Assembly (NCBI GenBank): GCA_947462925.1
Contig: CANHQP010000013.1
Span: forward strand, 1 to 64,000
Direction: 5' to 3'
Origin: Flavobacteriia bacterium
Lineage (GTDB): Bacteria > Bacteroidota > Bacteroidia > Flavobacteriales_D > Crocinitomicaceae
Length of the DNA stretch: 64,000 bases
The position numbers and the translations under genes are program-made. Positions 1,040 to 30,208 of this stretch are shown here, piece by piece. Position 1 is the stretch's first letter. Every line of letters starts with the position of its first letter. Below the pieces are notes generated by a model, which searched no databases, was not told the DNA's origin, and saw only the letters and a program-made list of their open reading frames with translations.

Positions 1040-3259
1040 CTAATTTTTAATGATTTTTACTGTTTGATGTTTGTTTTTAGATTCAATCATCAACTGGTAA
1101 ACGCCAGACGCTAATTCTGCTAATTCAATTTTTTTGCTTGAATTTCCAAGTTCCAAATCAATTTTTTGCACTTCTCTACCCGTAACATCTGTTAAGTGAA
1201 CAGTCGTTTTTGTTATGGTGGTGATATTGATTAGCATAAAGTCATTTGAAGGATTTGGATAAATAGACTGCAATTCAAAATCAGTGTCTTGCACAATAGG
1301 TAAAGCCTCAGTGATTTGGATATTTCCTTGATATGCTTTGAAATTTTGTTTGGTAGCAGTAACAAGAAGCGGTAAATTAGAGCTTAGAGCTGGAAGTGTA
1401 AAATTTGCAATCCCAGCATTTACAATACTTGTAGCTAATAAAGTATCGTTTTGAGAGATGGCAATGGTAGCTTGGTCTTGGTTGCAATTTACTGAAAGCT
1501 GTGTTTCACTTTGAGCAATTTGGGTAACATGATTCACAACCAATTCTTGAGTAGTTTTATTCCTGAAGACAACAGAAGGATCACCAAAAAACACCCAGGT
1601 TTGCATCACTTCGTCTCCATCAGGACCAGAATAATTTTCCATCATACTCAATTGCGCATTGTAAAATAACCCACCAAGAGTAATTTTTTTATTGTTTTGA
1701 TATGATTCAGTTAAAATAGCAGTCATTTCATCTTGCGTCTGCATTGGTGGTGCCCAAGACATGAGAATTGACGAACCACAAGCTCCAATTGCACCAGTTG
1801 GTGTTCCGTTTTTACTCGCTCTTAACCAAGTTTCAGACAAACAAGTTCCATAAATAAAAGTGCCATTATTGCAAGCTACCGAGACAACAAAAGGATATTT
1901 TCCATTATTTGTTGCATTGTTTACATTGAGTGAAGTGAAACTTCCTGTTACCATTTCATTGATGTCACCATGTCCAGTGTAATTAAGCAGTCCAATCCCA
2001 CTGTTTAAAGCTGGAAGAATAATGGTCGCATTTGGACTTCCAGCAGCGTCTTGTTCGCCATGGGTTCCATCGTAAAATTCATATACCTGATTGTAACCAT
2101 AATTAGTCAATTGGTTTCCAATATTTCGCAAATGTAACCAGTCTACTTCATTGTCATCACCTATTCCTGCTCCTTCACTTGATCCGATTCCCATGGCATT
2201 GGTCATCCAATCTCCCGTCGCAGGACTTTTTTCATATTCCAAGACACGGTCAACCATGTTTTTGATTTGTGCTGTATCGCCTGAAAAGCGACCAACGAAC
2301 AATTCAGGAAATAAATCTGTACCAGCTAGTTGACCAAAGTATGTGTCACTGATTATTTCTTCACCTCCAGTAGTTCCATAGATGTATGCGGGAATTTCTG
2401 TGTGGTCACCAACCAATAATAGATAAAGTAAATTTGGGTTGTTGTTGTATTCACTTAAGATGTAATTTTTAATCGAATTGGCCGAATTTCCTGTAATTGA
2501 AGTACCAACTATTTTTGTAAAAATTCCTTTTTGATTTTTCCAATTGACAAAGGGTTGCATTGTTTCGATAAGCGAATCAGGACAAATTACCAATAAATCC
2601 CCGTTTTCTTCTATTGCGTTGTATTTTAACGTTTTGGAGTTAAGAAAGAAAGAGTTTTGAAAAGAATTAGTATGCATGTTTGATTCAATCTCATTACTTC
2701 CATCTTGATTTGGAAGGTAATGCAATACAATTTGAATATTTTCATAAACCCTGAGCACTTTCGTTACTGGATTGTATTGATACGGAAATACAGTAACATT
2801 GACGCCTCGTTCAGATCTTAAAATAAAAGGATTTGAAATTTCAGCTAAATTGCCAGGATAGAATTCGTCTTTCGAATACACATCGCCAAATTGATAAGCT
2901 ATTGTTGATGGATCAACATTTCTCTTCAAATTGCCCTTTGATGGTAAAACATTGACATCTTTAATTTCCTTATAACTTTCGTAAATAACTTGTAGTTCAA
3001 CATTTCCTCGATTAGGAATTAAAATTGAGGTGCTAAATTTTGGTAATGATGGTTCAGCAATTTTCTGAGTTGTAATTTTAAAGTTAGATTTGAAATTGAT
3101 GTAATCAAGATTATTTAAAGTAGTTAAGAGTAGTTTTTTGTCATTTAATTTGTGACTAAAAATTGTTTCAAATTCTTTATCTTCAATTATTTGGAAGTCT
3201 TGTGCAAGAACGTAGTTCGAAAGCATTAAAAAGAGAAAGATATTTAAAACAGATTTCAT
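1040..3259 (-). CDS. C25-family (gingipain-like) cysteine protease with T9SS sorting domain
   Basis: 739 aa. It has an N-terminal signal peptide (about residues 1-19, cleavage after VLA), a propeptide-like region to about 210, and a gingipain-type catalytic domain. Catalytic His430 lies in YTGHGD and Cys463 in SVACNNG, the same spacing and context as in gingipains. The final ~75 residues (from SIYPNPSND) form a type A T9SS C-terminal sorting domain ending in KIIKN. The protein is therefore expected to be exported by Sec, secreted by T9SS and attached to or released from the surface. Substrate is unknown. In some members of this family, such as PorU, the protease processes other T9SS cargo; however, the protein here carries its own sorting domain and is shorter than PorU, so it is more likely cargo than PorU itself. 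Confidence 0.9.
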   Translation of the reverse strand: MKSVLNIFLFLMLSNYVLAQDFQIIEDKEFETIFSHKLNDKKLLLTTLNNLDYINFKSNFKITTQKIAEPSLPKFSTSILIPNRGNVELQVIYESYKEIKDVNVLPSKGNLKRNVDPSTIAYQFGDVYSKDEFYPGNLAEISNPFILRSERGVNVTVFPYQYNPVTKVLRVYENIQIVLHYLPNQDGSNEIESNMHTNSFQNSFFLNSKTLKYNAIEENGDLLVICPDSLIETMQPFVNWKNQKGIFTKIVGTSITGNSANSIKNYILSEYNNNPNLLYLLLVGDHTEIPAYIYGTTGGEEIISDTYFGQLAGTDLFPELFVGRFSGDTAQIKNMVDRVLEYEKSPATGDWMTNAMGIGSSEGAGIGDDNEVDWLHLRNIGNQLTNYGYNQVYEFYDGTHGEQDAAGSPNATIILPALNSGIGLLNYTGHGDINEMVTGSFTSLNVNNATNNGKYPFVVSVACNNGTFIYGTCLSETWLRASKNGTPTGAIGACGSSILMSWAPPMQTQDEMTAILTESYQNNKKITLGGLFYNAQLSMMENYSGPDGDEVMQTWVFFGDPSVVFRNKTTQELVVNHVTQIAQSETQLSVNCNQDQATIAISQNDTLLATSIVNAGIANFTLPALSSNLPLLVTATKQNFKAYQGNIQITEALPIVQDTDFELQSIYPNPSNDFMLINITTITKTTVHLTDVTGREVQKIDLELGNSSKKIELAELASGVYQLMIESKNKHQTVKIIKN

Positions 3260-3522: not shown

Positions 3523-4434
3523 ATGAGAAAAATTTTACTTTCTGTTTTCGCGTTTGCTGGTGTAAGCGCAACGTCTTTTGGACAAATTGATACTCTTTCT
3601 GAGTTCTTTACAGGTACACCTGCAGTTTATCAAGTTGATGCTGTTGCTCCACTTGATAGTGGTTTTGTTTTTGGAAATAATGCCTTCGGTGATGTTGCTA
3701 AAATCATGAAATTTGATGCTACAACTGGTCTTTCTGGTAGTGGAACTATCAAAAGTGTTTTAGTTGGTATTAGAGCTAAAGTTGATATGGGTGGTTCAAT
3801 CAAAGTTAAAGTTTGGGAATTCTCAAGTACTACTGCTTTGGGTGCTGAACTTGGTTCTATTACAGTTCCTTTGGCACAAATTGATACTAATATCGCTGCA
3901 TACGCATTAGCTGGTGGTGCTCCACGTATTTATAATGTTGCTGTTAACTTTCCAACTGCAATCACTATGCCTGCTTCAGGTGCATTCTTAGTTGGGGTTG
4001 AATTGCCTTCTAACAGTACTGGTGCAATCGCTATGATTAGTAATTCTTTCGGAGATTTTGCTGCTGCAACAACAAACTCTTTTGAATTATGGTCAGACAA
4101 TACTTTACATACAGTTCCTGCTTCATGGGGTGCTGGTGCAACAGCTGCATTGGCTATTTTCCCAGTTGTTAACTACACTGTAGGAATTGATGAGTTGAAC
4201 ATGACTTCTTCAATCTACCCAAATCCAGCTACTAACGAAGTTAACTTTAACTTGAATGGCGTTCAAATGTCAAACATCAAAGTTTACGGTTTAGATGGTA
4301 AAATGATTTTGGATAATGAATTGAATTCAACTTCTGGTCAAATCAATGTTGCTTCATTGAACAACGGAATGTACATTTGTGAGATCACTTCTCAAAATGG
4401 TAATGTTGTTAAAAGTACTTTCGTTAAAAAATAA
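3523..4434 (+). CDS. secreted protein with T9SS type A sorting domain
   Basis: 303 aa. Signal peptide at residues 1-20 (ends SFGQ). The mature part is rich in Gly, Ala, Thr and Val and looks like a beta-sandwich; no enzymatic motif was recognised. From about residue 229 (SSIYPNPATNE) to the C-terminus (STFVKK) there is a typical T9SS type A sorting domain, so it is predicted to be secreted and surface-exposed. Codon choice is strongly biased (GGT, GCT, ACT, AAA) as in highly expressed genes. An exact -7 box lies 21 nt upstream and a very strong terminator 18 bp downstream, giving a monocistronic and probably abundant transcript. Function unknown. Confidence 0.85.
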   Translation: MRKILLSVFAFAGVSATSFGQIDTLSEFFTGTPAVYQVDAVAPLDSGFVFGNNAFGDVAKIMKFDATTGLSGSGTIKSVLVGIRAKVDMGGSIKVKVWEFSSTTALGAELGSITVPLAQIDTNIAAYALAGGAPRIYNVAVNFPTAITMPASGAFLVGVELPSNSTGAIAMISNSFGDFAAATTNSFELWSDNTLHTVPASWGAGATAALAIFPVVNYTVGIDELNMTSSIYPNPATNEVNFNLNGVQMSNIKVYGLDGKMILDNELNSTSGQINVASLNNGMYICEITSQNGNVVKSTFVKK

Positions 4435-4887: not shown

Positions 4888-6114
4888 TTAATCCTCAAAT
4901 CTTGTTATTGTACCTTGATAGTTTTTAGACTCACCAATTTCAGGTTTTTCTAAATTTACCCTCCAAATATAGGGTGTAGCTGGAGCAATCAATTGTTGCG
5001 TACGTTTGTCTATTCCATCCCAAGGTTCTGATTCACTTTTTGTTTCATAAACCGTTTGTCCAGTCTTCGGATCGATTATTTGCATTGTAAAAGGAATGTT
5101 TCTTTCTAGCAGGGCATAAGGCAAGAAAGTATTTATCTTGGAATTAGAACTTGTTGGAATAAAGCTATTCATTGCCAGTAGATTGTAACTTGATTCACAT
5201 CTAACATTTTTAGTGATTTTACTTTCGCATCCATTTTCAGATTGCAGTGTAAGTGTCACCGCGTGATTTCCTTTGGTAAAGAAATGTGCATCAAAACTTT
5301 TTTCTCTTGAAAGTACAATTCCTTTTTCATTCGTCCAAGTATATTTTGCAGCTGAATTACTAGAGTTTAACGAATTGATGGGTAGTCCTTTGTAAAAGAC
5401 CATTTCTTCGTCGGCATAAAAATCAGCTTTTACTTTTGGAGTAACAGAAAATGCAAATGCTTTTTGAACTTTACCATTTTTCAAGAAGCTAAAGAAATAA
5501 TCACCAGGAAGTAAATCAATGCTTACTTTGGTTTTTTCTTTTATTAGCTTATTAGTACCATTTGAAGAAATAAGATTAAAAGCACCTTCGTTTGCATTGC
5601 TGATTTCAATAATCTCGTTTTCACAATATTTATCTGAAAATTTAGGAAGAATTATTTCGAAATCTGCTGGAGCAAAATCACCTGGATTTGGGATATTAAT
5701 GTTTTCCGCCTTTTTGGGTGGAATGCCATTCAACAGTTCCTTTTCTGCACCATCGTCGTTCGTCGTAGATACATTGTTAGAACCAGAATTTGATTTTACA
5801 TTGGTAGTCGACGCAATTTGTTTAACGTTAGCATTTTTATATTCATTGTTATTTTCATTTGAAATAGGGTTTTCTCCTACATTCAAATTTTTTGTAGTTT
5901 TTGGGCTAGTTTCATTTTTCTGCAACGCAAAAAATGCTGCTACACCCACAATTAAAATGGATGATGCTACCCAAGCCCATTTGAAAGAAGTTTTTACACT
6001 TTTGACAGGAAGCTGTTGATCTAATCTTTTAGACATTGCTTCCCATGCTTTTGGATCATAAGGTGCTTCAATATCTTTCAGACTGTTTTTAAATATTTCT
6101 TCTATTTTGCTCAT
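4888..6114 (-). CDS. membrane protein with PKD- and CHU_C-like domains, putative anti-sigma partner
   Basis: 408 aa from the ATG at 6114, one base after the sigma factor stop; an upstream start inside the sigma gene is less likely. The N-terminal ~40 residues are cytoplasmic-type and resemble the short leader (IEAPYDPKAWEAM) common in Bacteroidota proteins encoded next to ECF sigma factors. One transmembrane helix lies at about 44-65. A Ser/Asn-rich linker follows, then two beta domains: a PKD-like segment (about 215-300) and a C-terminal gliding-motility-associated (CHU_C)-like domain ending in YQGTITRF. It is predicted to sit in the inner membrane with a large periplasmic part. The location suggests an anti-sigma or sensor role, but no classical zinc anti-sigma motif is visible, so this is inference. 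Confidence 0.65.
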   Translation of the reverse strand: MSKIEEIFKNSLKDIEAPYDPKAWEAMSKRLDQQLPVKSVKTSFKWAWVASSILIVGVAAFFALQKNETSPKTTKNLNVGENPISNENNNEYKNANVKQIASTTNVKSNSGSNNVSTTNDDGAEKELLNGIPPKKAENINIPNPGDFAPADFEIILPKFSDKYCENEIIEISNANEGAFNLISSNGTNKLIKEKTKVSIDLLPGDYFFSFLKNGKVQKAFAFSVTPKVKADFYADEEMVFYKGLPINSLNSSNSAAKYTWTNEKGIVLSREKSFDAHFFTKGNHAVTLTLQSENGCESKITKNVRCESSYNLLAMNSFIPTSSNSKINTFLPYALLERNIPFTMQIIDPKTGQTVYETKSESEPWDGIDKRTQQLIAPATPYIWRVNLEKPEIGESKNYQGTITRFED

Positions 6115-6115
6115 T

Positions 6116-6694
6116 CTAATCGAATTTAACAAGTTTTGTTTCTATTATGCGTTGAAGATTTTGTTTTGCTTTGGCTAAATTTGATTTGGAAGTTCCCTCA
6201 CTAATTCCAAGGATTTCAGCGATTTCCTTGTGAGTATATTCTTCCAAAACATATAAATTAAAAACAGTTTTGTAAGCCGGAGAAAGTTTATTAATCGCTT
6301 CCATGGCTATTTCTGCTTTTAAAGTTCTAAAACTTTCAATTTCTGCTTCTTCCATTGGGTTGACAATCTCAGCAACAAAATCAGTATCATTTTCAAACAA
6401 TACAGGCTTTTTCTTGTTTTTTCTGATCGAATCAATGGCAGTGTTTGCAATGATTCTTCTTAACCAACCCTCAAAAGAACCTTTAAAATCAAAAGATTCA
6501 ATTTTTTCAAAGACCTTTATAAATCCATCCTGTAGAATCTCTTGTGCAGAATCATGATCGATGGTGTAACGCAAGCAAACACTTAGCATTTTTCCATAAA
6601 ACATAGCAAATAATTTCTCTTGGGCTTTGCGTTCGTTCTGAATACAGCCTTTGATAATTAATTCTAATTCTACTTTTTTTGTTTCCACATTCAA
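6116..6694 (-). CDS. ECF-family RNA polymerase sigma factor
   Basis: 192 aa. Region 2 runs from about residue 20 to 90 (the LSVCLRYTIDHDSAQEILQD stretch, then the FEGWLRRIIANTAID motif). Region 4, with a helix-turn-helix, lies at about 125-180 (LSPAYKTVFNLYVLEEYTHKEIAEILGISEGTSKSNL). It lacks a region 1 or 3, as expected for ECF factors. It is predicted to direct RNA polymerase to a small regulon. It is the first gene of a two-gene unit with the membrane protein at 4888-6114, separated by one base. That pairing is the usual layout for a sigma factor and its membrane regulator. The regulon cannot be read from this window. Confidence 0.93.
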   Translation of the reverse strand: MNVETKKVELELIIKGCIQNERKAQEKLFAMFYGKMLSVCLRYTIDHDSAQEILQDGFIKVFEKIESFDFKGSFEGWLRRIIANTAIDSIRKNKKKPVLFENDTDFVAEIVNPMEEAEIESFRTLKAEIAMEAINKLSPAYKTVFNLYVLEEYTHKEIAEILGISEGTSKSNLAKAKQNLQRIIETKLVKFD

Positions 6695-6858
6695 CGTTTT
6701 TATGACGCAAGATATTAAGAACGGTTGCCATTGGACAAAGATTGTTAATTCTTATTGACAATTCTATATTTTTCCTAACAAATTAAAGCCTCATAAGCAC
6801 ATTTGTAGTAACTTTAGCGCGTCAATTTTAAAGATTAAATTTTAATACATATATCAAC

Positions 6859-7797
6859 ATGAAAGTAACTGTAGTAGGTGCGGGAAATGTAGGTGCAACT
6901 TGTGCTGATGTTCTTGCCCAAAGAGAAATTGCCAATGAAATTGTTTTATTAGATATCAAAGAAGGTTTTGCTGAAGGTAAAGCGTTGGATATTTGGCAAA
7001 AATCACCAATCAATTTGTATGATTCCAGAACAACTGGTTCTACAAATGATTATTCAAAAACTGCAAATTCTGATGTAGTAGTAATCACTTCAGGTTTGCC
7101 GAGAAAACCAGGTATGTCTCGTGATGATTTGATCGCTACAAATGCTGGAATTGTTAAAACAGTTACTGAAAATATCATTCAACATTCTCCAGATGCGATT
7201 ATCATTATCGTTTCTAATCCTTTGGATGTAATGACATACTGTGCTTATTTGAATGCAAAAGTAGATTCAAGTAAAGTTTTTGGTATGGCTGGAGTTTTGG
7301 ATACTGCGCGTTACAGAGCTTTCTTGGCTGCAGAATTAGGAGTTTCTCCAAAAGATATTCAAGCTGTATTGATGGGGGGTCACGGTGATACTATGGTTCC
7401 ACTTCCTAGATATACAACAGTTTCAGGTATTCCTGTAACAGAATTGATTTCTGAAGAGAAATTGAACGAAATCATCGAAAGAACTAAGTTTGGTGGTGGT
7501 GAAATCGTTAAATTATTAGGTACTTCTGCTTGGTATGCTCCAGGTGCTGCTGCTGCTCAAATGGTTGAAGCGATTGTACGTGACCAAAAAAGAATTTTCC
7601 CAGTTTGCGCGTGGTTGAATGGTGAATATGGTATGAAAGATATCTATTTAGGTGTTCCTGTAGTTTTAGGTAAAAACGGAATCGAGAAAATTATCGAATT
7701 ACAATTGAATGATGCAGAAAAAGCATTGTTAGAAGAATCAGCTGTTGCAGTGAAAAGTGTAATGGATGTTTTGGATAACATGAATGCTAACGCATAA
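6859..7797 (+). CDS. mdh: malate dehydrogenase
   Basis: 312 aa. It interconverts malate and oxaloacetate with NAD in the TCA cycle. The N-terminal Rossmann motif is GAGNVG (residues 7-12). The substrate-binding arginines appear in SGLPRKPGMSRDDL (R81, R87), and the catalytic His175 lies in MGGHGDTMVP. The length and the GGHGDTMVPL motif fit the LDH-like group of malate dehydrogenases common in Bacteroidota rather than the E. coli type. It is monocistronic: a perfect terminator follows 21 bp after the stop. Codon use suggests high expression. Citrate synthase, another TCA enzyme, lies at 58.8-60.1 kb and is not linked. Confidence 0.95.
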   Translation: MKVTVVGAGNVGATCADVLAQREIANEIVLLDIKEGFAEGKALDIWQKSPINLYDSRTTGSTNDYSKTANSDVVVITSGLPRKPGMSRDDLIATNAGIVKTVTENIIQHSPDAIIIIVSNPLDVMTYCAYLNAKVDSSKVFGMAGVLDTARYRAFLAAELGVSPKDIQAVLMGGHGDTMVPLPRYTTVSGIPVTELISEEKLNEIIERTKFGGGEIVKLLGTSAWYAPGAAAAQMVEAIVRDQKRIFPVCAWLNGEYGMKDIYLGVPVVLGKNGIEKIIELQLNDAEKALLEESAVAVKSVMDVLDNMNANA

Positions 7798-24675: not shown

Positions 24676-25913
<1,238 letters not shown>

Positions 25914-26005
25914 GAAAGTAGTTCTTAAAGTTGATAAACTACTTCAACGGTTTAATTTTGAAAAGGTTATATGTTTTTTTGATACTTGGTTAATACTTTT
26001 AATTT

Positions 26006-26045
26006 AAAAAATATGTGACGCAAATATTAATTGCGCCACATATTT
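26006..26045 (-). terminator. terminator of cas9
   Basis: 15-bp stem (26009-26023 with 26031-26045) and 7-nt loop. The only plus-strand mismatch (A/C) becomes U-G in the minus-strand RNA, and the A run at 26006-26010 gives a U tract. It separates cas9 from cas1-cas2. Confidence 0.85.
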
Positions 26046-26053
26046 GAAATAAA

Positions 26054-29000
26054 TTAATATTCTTCAACTTGTACTATTTTTCCGAGGTGGTTAATGCGGA
26101 CTTTCAGAATGTTTTCAAGATTAGAGGGAGTTTGTATAAAATTATATATGATTTTTGATAATTCCTTTTTGTTTTTTAAGGTTTCACCAGAAATAGCTTG
26201 TGTTTCATAATGATGAGTAAACATGTAATTTTTTGAAGAGATTTTCTGAACTCTAAACAAATTAGGACTTATCAAATGATAATTATTCATATCCAATAAA
26301 TCAATTTCATTTGGTTTAAAACCTGTTTTTTCATTTGGAAAGACAAAATATTCATTTTGCTTTAGTGTAAATAAAAACGTCCATCCTTCACTACTTTTGA
26401 ATGTTTTATCCACCGCATTAAGTCCTTGATTTATTCTGATGACTGCTTCATAAAATGAAACAACTTTTTCTTGAAGATTTCCTTTTTCGTCCCTGTAAAT
26501 GGCAACGTGGTGATTGTTTCCAGTATTTACAAAATCAACCGCTTGTTTGTTGCCTTTTTTATCTAAAAGTAAATTTCCATTTTTATCTTTTTTGTCATGT
26601 AAAGCAACCGCATTGCTGATTCCAGAAATGGTAACTGTTTTTATAGAAATTCCTTTTTCTTCATTTAACCAAATGGGGAATTCATCTAAATTTGAAAATG
26701 CTTTCTTTGCGTCACCAAATTTTTGCAATCTATCTTCTAATACTTTGCGAATTTTTACATCAATAACTTTGTCAATTTTCAAATCTGGAGTGATAGGTTT
26801 TCGAATAGTATAAATAGTAATCTCATTAACAATCTTTACTTTTTCAGGAACGAATTGGGTTTTAGACTCGTTGATGTAAATTGGATTTTTTTCTAAGCTG
26901 TTTTTTCCAGAAAATGCTTTTTTAGGATCATTGTCGAATTCGTTAAGTCTTGCCAATAAGGCTTCTCTGTGAATCTTTTTTGCAACTTTAAGAATCATCT
27001 CCTCATTGAAATTACTTCCAACCTTTAAAATAGAAGTTTCATATTGCTTTATACTTCCATAAACCGTTTCTAAATGCAGTTGACCTCTTGGTGTGAGTGT
27101 AGTTTGAGCATTTTCATTCCCTTTAGTTTTGTTTTTATTTGGAGTAACCACTTTATTCTTTGCTTTGAAAGAAATCAATGTATTTTCAAGATGTTTCTTA
27201 GCTTCTGCACGAAATTTATTAAGTTCCATAGGAGGATTAAACCTTAATTTATTTCTTTCATCTTTGTAAAGTTCTTTCTTTTCTATGCCAATGACCTTAG
27301 AAAACTCTTTGCTGTTTTCATCTTTTCGAGCGTTTAAATGATTTAAGTACTGTACATGACTTGGTCGCGTAAATGCAACTGTTAATGCATCCATAGCATG
27401 ATGTCTATGGTCGTTTCTCTTTGTCCAATCTTCAATTCGAGGTAATTTTTTTCCTTCTCTGTTTGTCTCGAAATAAGTCAAACCTAGTTTTTCATACTTT
27501 TCCCAATTTAATTCTTGTAAAACATTGACCAATTGCCAATCTTCACGTAATCTGTTTGTTATACTTCCGGTAGTTGTATTGACAGTGCGGCAAACTTCAT
27601 AAAGCATTTCTCGTGCTTTTTTGGCTATGTATTGCGAATTTCTTAAATCTCTTTCAATAAAACCATCTTCAATTTCCTTAGATTTTTTGAGAAGTTTGTT
27701 CAATTTTCCTTTTTTGCCTTCGACATTTTTAAACAAATCTTCTACTCTTTGTTCATAGTCTGGCAAACTTTCTTCACCATATTTTTCAAGGATAAAATCA
27801 TAGGCAGTTTTATCTCCTTTTTCGATGTTAATACTTCTTAATTCAAGCGTTTTGTTGGAGAAAGAATCGTCAAACATTCTTGATTGTGGAATAATGTGTT
27901 CAATGTCAAAATCTTTTGAAAATAACTTGTCAGAAGAAATATATGTATTCGAGTACAAAGTTTTGTAGCCATTTGGTTCCAGTTCTTTGTAAAGTTTATA
28001 CCGTATCAAATCATTTTTGCTCACATATGATAAACCAAATTCATTTTTAAGAATTTGCTTAAATTTTTCATGTTCGGCAGTCGATCTATTTATTCCTTTA
28101 GTTGTTTCTTCTCGTTCTTTTGCACTTTTTTTCAATTCACGAGCCAACTCCAATCGAATTTCATCAGGTTTTCCGTACTCGTCAATAATTGCGTTTACAA
28201 CATGAATAGTTTGATTTAATATTTTTTCAACTACAGGATTTCTTAAACTGTTTTTGTCTAGAAGTGTTAATTTGTCCTTTAATTCCCTTGTAGCTAATTC
28301 TTCTTTATTCAACGATTTAGAATGGTTGTATCCAGCTTTAAAAGCTGCCTCACTATATTCAAAACCGTCTTTTAAATGAGGTAGAATTTTTGAAATTGCT
28401 TTAGAACTCAAACTGCCATAATCGGGTTCAAACGTAATATTTGCTAAAAGTGATGCAAATTCTTTTTCGAAACCAAATTTCTCGTTCAATTTGATTATCA
28501 AACTATCGTTTCCAGTATTGGAATTATCTCCTTCATAAGAATATAATAAATGCCAAAGCTGAAATGCTGCCTGTTTTTCAAAAGCTTTTCCCTCTAAATC
28601 GGCATTGAATCGTAAAATATCTGTATTTATCCCCAGTGTTTTGAAGACTTTTTCAACTAAATCAAGGATTTCGTTAGCCGACATTTTGGAAAATTCAAAC
28701 TCTCCATGTCCTGATAAATCAATGATTTTACTATAAATTTCAAATAGATTTGCATTTGTTCTGTTACCATCAATATCTTTAAAGTTTAAGTCTAGTTCTT
28801 TGTGATTTTGATAGAGTAACTTTAAAATTTCATCCTTTTTGAGTGATTTTTTAACGTTAAGTTCTGCAAACAAAATATTTTTACATTCCTCATCTAATCT
28901 CCATTTTAATCTGTCTTTTTTATGTAAAACTTCTAAGTCATTCAAGCGTTGCCAAATTCGAAATTCTTGAAATAATGGAGAAGATTTAGGAGTTACTTTA

Positions 29001-30208
29001 GGGCCAATTAATCTCATTTTAGGCTTTCCATCAATAGAAACTTCAATTTCTTTACTTTCAAGTTCGCAAGTACTAATCAAACTTTTTTGTGATTTCAATT
29101 TTCTTTGATAGAAAATGCAAATATCCTTTAATTCAGTTTTCAATTCATTTGAAAGTGAACTGTGATGTTTTGACTGTTCTTTCCAAATTGCATCAAACTC
29201 ATTTTCGTAATCTTTACGATAAAACACTTGCCCTTTCAATCGTGTATGGCGATTTTCTTGAATTTGACAGTACATGAATTGTCCAACAGTTTGTTTGTTG
29301 AAAAACAGTTCTTTACTACGGTCACTAATATCTCCTAAATATCCACTGGATTTATTGATATCGTTATTTATCTCTGTTAAAACATACGCAACTTCTTCTT
29401 TGGTCAATTGTTTTTGCAAGCCTTCATTGCGCCATTTATAAGCTTGTAATTTCTTTTCTTCTCTATTTCCTTTATTTTCTGCTGTGTTAAAATTATAAGT
29501 TGACCAAAAAATTGCGGAAGTTGCTCTTTGACCTTTGCCTTTTATTTTTTCTTTGAAATCTTCAGTTAAAATTTCAACGTGAAACTCTTTTTGGAAATCC
29601 CATATTTTATCAAACTCATTTTGTAAATCAGATCGATAAAAGTCAGGTAGATTTTTTTTGCCTTCATTTAAAAGTAATAAGCAATATTGACCTGGAGTTA
29701 GATTTTCTTCGTAAAGTTTTAAAGCAACTTCCATTCCGTCAATCAATTGTCCCTCATCTTCATTTTTTACTTTTCTACTACTTTTATATCCTCGTTTCTT
29801 ATTAATCGATAGTAAAACCCTTGCAAATTCTTCCTTTGATATTTTTTCAGTAACAGCTTTAGCTCTCAGCTCAAGTGTCTGATAAGTAGTGTTTTTACCT
29901 TCTTCTGAAAAATTTGATTCATTTGTAATAAATCCATTTTTCATCAGAACTTTAAGCAATACACTTCTTCGTAGTTTATAGCGTTGCAAATTTCTTCTTG
30001 CACTTCTGCTGTTTGTTCGGTCTTGGTTAGTTGTTATTGCCTTTCCTTTTTCAAAATTTCCAATTTCATCAGTGCTTAAAGGAATTACTCTAACACCTGT
30101 TCTGAGGATTTCAGATTCTTGATTATTTTTTTCAAGAACCAACGCCCAACCTATACTGGTGCTTCCTAAATCCAACCCCAAAATCACTTTCCCATTTTCA
30201 TTGCTCAT
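26054..30208 (-). CDS. cas9: type II-C CRISPR effector nuclease Cas9
   Basis: 1384 aa. RuvC-I LGLDLGSTSIGWA with Asp13; Arg-rich bridge helix about 64-92 (RTNSRSARRNLQRYKLRR); recognition lobe about 95-650; RuvC-II IRLELARELKK with Glu687; HNH DIEHIIPQS with His771 and a downstream Asn794; RuvC-III HHAMDALTVAF with His937 and Asp940; then a long C-terminal PAM-interacting region. All catalytic residues are intact. It cleaves DNA matched by the crRNA-tracrRNA pair. The size is that of the large Bacteroidota II-C Cas9 group; csn2 and cas4 are absent, supporting II-C. Upstream lies the HIRAN gene (93 bp away, same strand) and then the tracrRNA gene. PAM not readable. Confidence 0.98.
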   Translation of the reverse strand: MSNENGKVILGLDLGSTSIGWALVLEKNNQESEILRTGVRVIPLSTDEIGNFEKGKAITTNQDRTNSRSARRNLQRYKLRRSVLLKVLMKNGFITNESNFSEEGKNTTYQTLELRAKAVTEKISKEEFARVLLSINKKRGYKSSRKVKNEDEGQLIDGMEVALKLYEENLTPGQYCLLLLNEGKKNLPDFYRSDLQNEFDKIWDFQKEFHVEILTEDFKEKIKGKGQRATSAIFWSTYNFNTAENKGNREEKKLQAYKWRNEGLQKQLTKEEVAYVLTEINNDINKSSGYLGDISDRSKELFFNKQTVGQFMYCQIQENRHTRLKGQVFYRKDYENEFDAIWKEQSKHHSSLSNELKTELKDICIFYQRKLKSQKSLISTCELESKEIEVSIDGKPKMRLIGPKVTPKSSPLFQEFRIWQRLNDLEVLHKKDRLKWRLDEECKNILFAELNVKKSLKKDEILKLLYQNHKELDLNFKDIDGNRTNANLFEIYSKIIDLSGHGEFEFSKMSANEILDLVEKVFKTLGINTDILRFNADLEGKAFEKQAAFQLWHLLYSYEGDNSNTGNDSLIIKLNEKFGFEKEFASLLANITFEPDYGSLSSKAISKILPHLKDGFEYSEAAFKAGYNHSKSLNKEELATRELKDKLTLLDKNSLRNPVVEKILNQTIHVVNAIIDEYGKPDEIRLELARELKKSAKEREETTKGINRSTAEHEKFKQILKNEFGLSYVSKNDLIRYKLYKELEPNGYKTLYSNTYISSDKLFSKDFDIEHIIPQSRMFDDSFSNKTLELRSINIEKGDKTAYDFILEKYGEESLPDYEQRVEDLFKNVEGKKGKLNKLLKKSKEIEDGFIERDLRNSQYIAKKAREMLYEVCRTVNTTTGSITNRLREDWQLVNVLQELNWEKYEKLGLTYFETNREGKKLPRIEDWTKRNDHRHHAMDALTVAFTRPSHVQYLNHLNARKDENSKEFSKVIGIEKKELYKDERNKLRFNPPMELNKFRAEAKKHLENTLISFKAKNKVVTPNKNKTKGNENAQTTLTPRGQLHLETVYGSIKQYETSILKVGSNFNEEMILKVAKKIHREALLARLNEFDNDPKKAFSGKNSLEKNPIYINESKTQFVPEKVKIVNEITIYTIRKPITPDLKIDKVIDVKIRKVLEDRLQKFGDAKKAFSNLDEFPIWLNEEKGISIKTVTISGISNAVALHDKKDKNGNLLLDKKGNKQAVDFVNTGNNHHVAIYRDEKGNLQEKVVSFYEAVIRINQGLNAVDKTFKSSEGWTFLFTLKQNEYFVFPNEKTGFKPNEIDLLDMNNYHLISPNLFRVQKISSKNYMFTHHYETQAISGETLKNKKELSKIIYNFIQTPSNLENILKVRINHLGKIVQVEEY

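Follow-up and report, generated by a model that had tools for sequence, protein, structure and literature searches.

In the 64,000-nucleotide stretch of Flavobacteriia bacterium DNA analysed here (the window), an ECF sigma factor gene is followed by the gene of a single-pass membrane protein. We read this pair, with a probability of roughly 0.6, as a sigma/anti-sigma switch for exported surface proteins, in which a C-terminal domain resembling the type B CTDs of T9SS substrates would engage the type B cargo machinery. That the pair would serve exported proteins is well supported by sequence comparison. What is new is the sensor, a PKD domain plus a type B-like domain, on an anti-sigma factor whose remaining anatomy is already known from Dma proteins; in the open-access literature, we found no account of an anti-sigma factor carrying a CHU_C/type B domain. 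The features are listed below in window coordinates.

4888..6114, minus strand: anti-sigma-like membrane protein, 408 aa, starting 1 nt after the sigma stop codon
6116..6694, minus strand: ECF sigma factor gene, 192 aa as listed (Pfam, NCBIfam)
6016..6114, minus strand: cytoplasmic two-helix anti-sigma-like motif, residues 1-33, with PYDxxAW and W24 (alignment, model, profile A2)
5917..5979, minus strand: single transmembrane (TM) helix, about residues 46-66 (hydropathy)
5665..5916, minus strand: low-complexity tether, presumably periplasmic, about residues 67-150 (pLDDT under 50 over most of it)
5440..5664, minus strand: first beta-sandwich domain, about residues 151-225 (AlphaFold model)
5188..5439, minus strand: PKD domain, about residues 226-309 (family-level Pfam match, structural superposition)
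4891..5187, minus strand: CHU_C / type B CTD-like domain, residues 310-408, with IIDPKTG in place of RWG
6704..6729, minus strand: predicted ECF-type promoter of the sigma/anti-sigma operon, GGCAACC-N15-CGTC (sole match in the window, 0.06 expected)
6859..7797, plus strand: divergent neighbour, which we take from its sequence to be malate dehydrogenase-like, orthology marker of the locus (same stretch in 55 of 66 loci)

The sigma gene encodes regions 2 and 4 within a short protein, as expected of an ECF sigma factor (Pfam Sigma70_r2, E 6.8e-17, and Sigma70_r4_2, E 4.5e-17; NCBIfam sigma70-ECF, E 3.3e-31); its listed start is the TTG at 6694, with a GTG at 6688 as the alternative. Its stop codon TAG, a single A and the ATG of the membrane protein at 6114 adjoin, which confirms the one-base spacing reported by the first-pass annotation of this DNA. 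The single membrane helix before the C-terminal domains, also reported there, is equally clear: one hydrophobic helix begins at residue 46 (mean hydropathy 2.11), the 408-aa protein holds no other, and a single TM helix with a hydropathy of at least 1.22 is found in all 69 orthologues. There is no N-terminal Sec signal peptide, the sole helix being preceded by 45 mostly polar residues.

The protein search gave matches in 98 of 99 relatives, a count that includes ordinary CHU_C cargo. All 72 loci that were scored (71 with a gene of the window's kind, plus the barrel-type L033; 18 duplicate or cut loci were set aside) have an ECF sigma gene directly upstream of the membrane-protein gene, and the locus looks orthologous across relatives, judging from the nearby malate dehydrogenase-like gene. 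All 69 aligned orthologues keep the tryptophan W24 in their N-terminal motif, LExxxKxxLExxExPYDxxAW. In 13 of them the motif is repeated before the TM helix, with two copies in 12 and three in L068 (the others being L012, L018, L049, L050, L052, L055, L056, L058, L065, L066, L069 and L073), as counted from the printed sequences and consistent with the profile hits. Such repeats could allow several sigma molecules per anchor, for which no other case is known to us. Two motif copies also occur in the barrel-type relative L094.

In the full-length AlphaFold model, the N-terminal motif forms two helices (residues 2-13 and 21-32), confidence is low over most of residues 41-148, including the TM region, which is not modelled as a helix (pLDDT under 50), and the beta domains begin at about residue 151, with a pLDDT of about 76 in the first ten residues of the first sandwich and of 90-95 thereafter. 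From the end of the TM helix to the first conserved cysteine of the beta domains, the tether spans 98 residues in the window protein and a median of 119 in the 69 orthologues (range 71-154). The PKD domain superposes on 4l9d_B with Z 10.3 and an rmsd of 1.9 over 76 residues. Taken alone, the window sequence stays below the Pfam cut-offs for both PKD (17.0 bits against 23.5) and CHU_C (18.6 against 27), has no match in NCBIfam, TIGR04131 included, and is not among the 41 TIGR04131 matches of its own genome. Among the 69 orthologues, on the other hand, PKD_4 is found in 48, CHU_C in 38 and the type B sorting model TIGR04131 in 27 (best 1.9e-11), all at E<=0.01. Because the PKD and CHU_C identities are clear at the family level, we accept them despite the sub-threshold scores of the window sequence; the PKD and CHU_C-like ends named in the first-pass annotation hold, although they become clear only in the family, and these profile matches support kinship between the C-terminal domain and the type B domains of the T9SS.

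The structural comparison that had been suggested for this domain is less decisive. Modelled alone (mean pLDDT 92), it has T9SS substrate CTDs among its nearest solved structures, namely 8glk_D (Z 7.7, rmsd 2.3, 73 residues), PorU 6za2 (Z 7.0, rmsd 3.9, 88 residues), RemZ 8gl8_D (Z 6.9, rmsd 2.6, 74 residues) and PorZ 5m11 (Z 6.9, rmsd 3.5, 88 residues), but a Z under 8 can reflect a common arrangement only, and streptococcal proteases (Z 9.1) rank above them. Foldseek alone returned nothing at E<=0.001 for the C-terminal domain, and a CTD profile run against the sequences of solved structures returned nothing useful (best E 0.042). A structural search with the whole model was set aside, being dominated by PKD and Ig folds.

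The promoter provides a handle on what the sigma factor may control. Of 73 loci, 68 (the barrel-type L033 included) have GCAAC-N15..17-CGT ahead of the sigma gene, 63 with a single spacing, and the strict consensus is GGCAACC-N15-CGTY. By kind of sigma, it is present in 11 of 13 of the window clade against 2 of 27 barrel-type, none of 6 second-family and none of 4 short loci, and thus appears largely special to the window-kind sigma clade. Upstream of the barrel-type sigma genes of L120 (contig 8 of the window's own genome), L121 and L122, we noticed a related but different motif, about CCAACC-N16-CGTT; the -35 may thus vary from one sigma of the group to the next. In the window (6692-6707), the end of the -10 element CGTC lies 9 bases ahead of the annotated TTG, a distance of about 17 in many orthologues (longest ORF), and, read from this distance, the 5' leader of the sigma operon would be very short or absent.

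Across the 99 genomes, the strict pattern gives 223 sites against 181 for a reversed control, a small excess, so many sites must be chance matches or the sigma's own. In the window's family, the 108 strict sites comprise 38 that are the sigma's own and 70 others, all of which were read: ORFs contain 18 of them, another 6 are intergenic with no gene start nearby, and 46 lie within 300 bp before a gene start. A signal-peptide-like N-terminus is predicted for 43 of these 46 target genes, compared to 111 of 7010 random positions (1.6%; Fisher p 6.7e-56). ORFs, signal peptides and gene starts are simple script calls, with the random baseline taken under identical rules, and the counts use all 70 family sites, since an initial 20 had been picked by eye. 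Two of the 43 positives resemble inner-membrane proteins (L238, L241). Of 19 targets of at least 300 aa, 13 are incomplete, running off the DNA read, while of the 6 complete ones 4 score above the cut-off for a type A CTD, the other 2 resembling inner-membrane proteins that are orthologues of each other. The other 27 targets are under 300 aa as read, and one of the 8 scanned has a Pfam family over cut-off; among 10 small regulon proteins compared to Pfam, nothing exceeded cut-off except CHU_C in L221. The small targets are thus no more than candidate T9SS cargo. The 113-aa L221 protein (L221:2690-3031), encoded 8 bp behind the promoter, has no parts other than a signal peptide and a type B CTD that includes RWG, and is perhaps a free competitor of the sensor. 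Similar small secreted proteins with conserved cysteines are seen by eye behind the promoter in several genera (L225, L248, L254, L269, L281).

In the window's own genome, the strict pattern matches the pair's own operon and nothing else, and the idea of a large regulon in this genome was dropped. A relaxed pattern, GGCAAC-N16/17-CGTY, was likewise abandoned: it matched 10 times, all but one of the matches falling within ORFs, whereas the control matched 16 times. With one mismatch allowed there are 40 sites, fewer than in the control (48); of the 29 non-sigma sites read (10 others were left unread), 26 lie inside ORFs and 1 lacks a gene start, and the remaining 2 both precede paralogous small secreted proteins. 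These two (L290:1067-1456 and L310:1074-1460) are of about 130 aa, have no Pfam family over cut-off, and look by eye like the strict-site targets L258, L260 and L261 of the sister species in the window's genus.

Outside the window's family, the pair itself often heads a run of very large genes. From 31 such loci, we extended 23, picked for an adjacent secreted-looking ORF on the same strand, and in 19 of these the pair is followed on that strand by type B cargo genes. The cargo proteins measure 860-4638 aa and have a type B CTD at the end, and up to three such proteins stand in tandem; in the 860-aa one (L191), the contig stops partway through the CTD. Two of the remaining four loci reach a contig end (L173, L188), L183 is broken into short frames, and in L184 the downstream protein (3463 aa) shows no CTD. 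Within the window's own family, most pairs have no giant cargo neighbours.

The distribution of the arrangement was traced with the N-terminal motif. A full-length profile (A1) was swamped by PKD-CHU_C cargo, with at most 5 candidates scored per genome, and was therefore replaced by A2, a 35-column profile of the motif alone, which at E<=0.01 is found in 90 of 99 relatives and in 48 of 345 genomes across the phylum. A related ECF sigma lies beside the motif in 50 of the 51 loci read there, the exception being L098, and a TM helix nearly always follows the motif (missed by the script in L096, weak at 0.83 in L098). What lies beyond the helix differs. By eye, 27 loci have an outer-membrane barrel, with OMP_b-brl_2 over cut-off in three of five proteins scanned (L099, L104, L111) and below it in L093 and L120; 4 loci, the short kind, have nothing folded; and 6 loci, in the window's order, form a second family ending in a type B CTD, which passes the TIGR04131 cut-off in L133, L134, L136, L137 and L138 and falls below it in L135. 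The PKD plus CHU_C-like end that defines the window's kind occurs, among the loci read, only in the window's order. As the same motif is fused elsewhere to barrels or to no folded domain, the sensors appear to have been swapped freely. The window's genome alone holds three such systems: the window's own; a barrel-like system on contig 8 (L120), whose Pfam barrel match stays under the cut-off; and, on contig 17, a system of the second CTD kind (L190:1400-2810), in which a sigma gene accompanies a 286-aa protein (TIGR04131 30.9 bits against a cut-off of 35) whose motif is visible by eye and below the profile threshold.

In a tree of 117 sigma factors, the 80 with a window-kind partner, from 12 families, form one clade (SH-aLRT 89), while those with the second CTD family stand apart, among the barrel and short types (97). 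Two independent recruitments of a CTD were favoured by a quick tree, but the AU test does not require them, a joint origin of the two CTD kinds being compatible with it (p 0.21).

These observations bear on an alternative that we consider unlikely, and that fares best of those weighed here. It accepts the regulon pair as real, but takes the PKD/CHU_C-like domains for an envelope or ligand sensor only, responding in the manner of RsgI-type or Dma-type proteins to a glycan, surface contact, peptidoglycan or envelope stress rather than measuring the T9SS. The variety of partners just described, barrels and unfolded ends alike, is what such a sensor would lead one to expect; PKD domains bind many things; and the window CTD, besides having no RWG, has drifted far from sorting signals, scoring 12.7 bits against a cargo profile, among the lowest eleven of 79, where cargo scores 52-121. 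(Of the 14 rows from the window's genome that went into the profile, L161 is a wrong extract, and the cargo scores are somewhat flattered because the cargo domains were found with that same profile.) Against this, a sorting-type domain is found in two sigma subfamilies, albeit with the possible joint origin noted above, and the promoter of the sigma marks exported proteins. As the predicted regulon of the window's genome is tiny and its CTD among the most drifted, the sensor may in this genus already serve another signal.

Our preferred reading, that the CTD-like domain engages type B cargo machinery, draws on a comparison of three sets of CTDs: 63 from cargo (27 encoded in the window's genome and 36 in the extended loci), 79 from anti-sigma proteins and 10 from the second family. 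The tryptophan of RWG is kept in 60 of 63 cargo domains and in none of the 79 anti-sigma or 10 second-family domains; the arginine is kept in 63, 16 and 3, respectively. Searching literally for R[WYF]G gives the same picture (62/63, 1/79 and 1/10), the two exceptions, L072 and L203, matching outside the motif position. The tryptophan of WDG, conversely, is kept throughout (62/63, 79/79, 10/10). In a CTD tree, all 79 anti-sigma domains fall into one clade (SH-aLRT 99); a derivation from neighbouring cargo was rejected, there being no close relative among the cargo checked in that tree.

It is conceivable, and we put it forward tentatively, as a proposal rather less likely to be right than wrong, that a type B sorting domain has here been turned into a non-exportable, membrane-anchored decoy that reads export load and adjusts surface-protein production. 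A decoy sensing T9SS load, as imagined in the first-pass annotation, is plausible, and the word fits the absence of the RWG tryptophan from all 79 anti-sigma copies in the alignment, a loss that might as well reflect another purpose of the domain. In our preferred reading of the switch, the cytoplasmic motif would hold the sigma at the membrane, while the CTD-like domain, having kept its fold and lost the tryptophan, would stay in the periplasm, bound by, or competing for, PorP/SprF-like shuttles, the SprA translocon or the PorK/N ring. Export sites free of cargo would change its bound state or, in the opposite version, cargo would do so by jamming the sites; either direction of the response fits this reading. 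The change would then lead, by conformational change or proteolysis, to inactivation or cleavage of the anti-sigma, and the freed sigma, presumably the only one to read the GGCAACC promoter, would raise the production of cargo and of small secreted helpers.

A further alternative is that the CTD still sorts: the C-terminus would be threaded through the T9SS or else kept at the outer membrane by a shuttle, and the protein would span both membranes as Dma does with its barrel. The core of the fold is indeed intact, with the last-strand glycine present in 78 of 79 anti-sigma CTDs beside the universal WDG tryptophan, outlying members retain PNGDG, and the median tether of 119 residues might be put to such use. 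We nevertheless regard continued sorting as improbable, given that RWG is lost as described and that a basic C-terminal residue is found in 27 of 79 anti-sigma CTDs, compared to 60 of 63 in cargo. Moreover, according to the available part of a 2025 study of Flavobacterium johnsoniae, five conserved motifs of the type B CTD are each necessary for secretion (PMC12618676), and RWG is probably among them. That the membrane protein has no part in controlling the sigma, their adjacency being an operonic coincidence, is scarcely credible in view of the sigma upstream in every scored locus, the motif beside such sigmas in all loci read but L098, and the anti-sigma function of Dma1 and Dma2, which have the same anatomy (PMC13088901, as far as its accessible text goes).

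The link to a sigma regulator suggested in the first-pass annotation, here read as an anti-sigma role, is likely on three counts, the constant pairing, the short cytoplasmic motif before the TM helix and the motif-sigma adjacency across the phylum, yet that reading had missed that this is the Dma anatomy with a different sensor. A comparable exchange of sensors is seen in the RsgI anti-sigma factors of Clostridium, single-pass proteins with a carbohydrate-binding module as their extracellular sensor, which differ in an unrelated N-terminal domain and in the class of their sigma. In the accessible part of its description, the Dma system of Bacteroides thetaiotaomicron comprises the anti-sigma factors Dma1 and Dma2, the loss of the anti-sigma acting through an ECF21 sigma and Dma2 acting on OMVs and PULs (PMC13088901). 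Shared with the window protein are one TM helix, a long disordered tether, a folded C-terminal sensor and an adjacent ECF sigma, and perhaps also the N-terminal anti-sigma part; from what that text gives, the window protein differs by having PKD and a type B CTD-like domain instead of a C-terminal beta-barrel, by a cytoplasmic motif that its kind sometimes carries in two to three tandem copies, and by a predicted regulon of secreted/T9SS proteins. The likeness is one of anatomy, the window motif being common to barrel-bearing, sigma-linked proteins rather than matched to Dma1-3 sequences, and the window sigma is linked to ECF21 only via its adjacency to Dma-like partners.

There are precedents for connecting the T9SS to ECF sigma factors. 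In Porphyromonas gingivalis, the CTD protein PorA signals into the ECF sigma SigP, which controls the T9SS, via PorXY (PMC7712824); in both systems, then, a CTD-bearing protein feeds an ECF sigma. As the accessible portion of that source has it, PorA is a surface protein acting via a two-component system and SigP controls the machinery (PMC7712824), whereas in the window the CTD-like domain sits in the anti-sigma itself and the promoter of the sigma marks exported proteins. The SM6 promoters of Flavobacterium psychrophilum have a CGT box at T9SS genes, and the targets named in the part of the report available are machinery (GldN, PorU), unlike the predicted regulon of the window sigma, with no description there of how the anti-sigma is built (PMC9723704). 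With PorXY-SigP and SM6 as precedents, a T9SS-ECF link is reasonable. Type B (CHU_C) substrates with their PorP/SprF shuttles, as portrayed in the accessible text of two sources, have the homologous CTD, often behind PKD (PMC12618676, PMC9143113). The window protein differs from them in having no Sec signal peptide, an internal TM helix and no RWG tryptophan, and remains under the CHU_C / TIGR04131 cut-offs by which such substrates are recognised.

How T9SS-bearing bacteria match the production of giant adhesins to their export capacity is not known to have been worked out. Were the decoy proposal true, the secretion system would have its own load sensor, made from a disabled copy of the address tag that its cargo carries, and the switch may let the cell match production to export capacity. 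The switch is small and conserved, its promoter is defined and its regulon can be predicted. A single residue, the RWG tryptophan, tells exported tags apart from the copy in the regulator, making the decoy idea directly testable. More broadly, the Dma-type anti-sigma tail suggests itself as a general plug for envelope sensors beyond beta-barrels.

Co-occurrence with the T9SS, proposed earlier as a check, holds in that SprA is found in 97 of 99 relatives, but says little, as the system is near-saturated inside the order and the test correspondingly weak. Both genomes in which SprA is missed, G019 (79% complete) and G096 (97%), have PorP/SprF-like genes, and the window's genome has 10 PorP/SprF-like genes and 38 type B domains over cut-off. 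Outside the order, 45 genomes bear the motif; SprA went unmatched in three of them (G100, G326 and G334) and did not exceed the cut-off in G365. In the window itself, the pair adjoins a C25 (gingipain-like) peptidase and another protein (1040-3259, minus strand, and 3523-4434, plus strand), both with type A T9SS sorting domains. Farther along, 25017-30208 on the minus strand holds a Cas1-like gene and a 1384-aa Cas9-like gene, recognised by eye as a type II CRISPR system.
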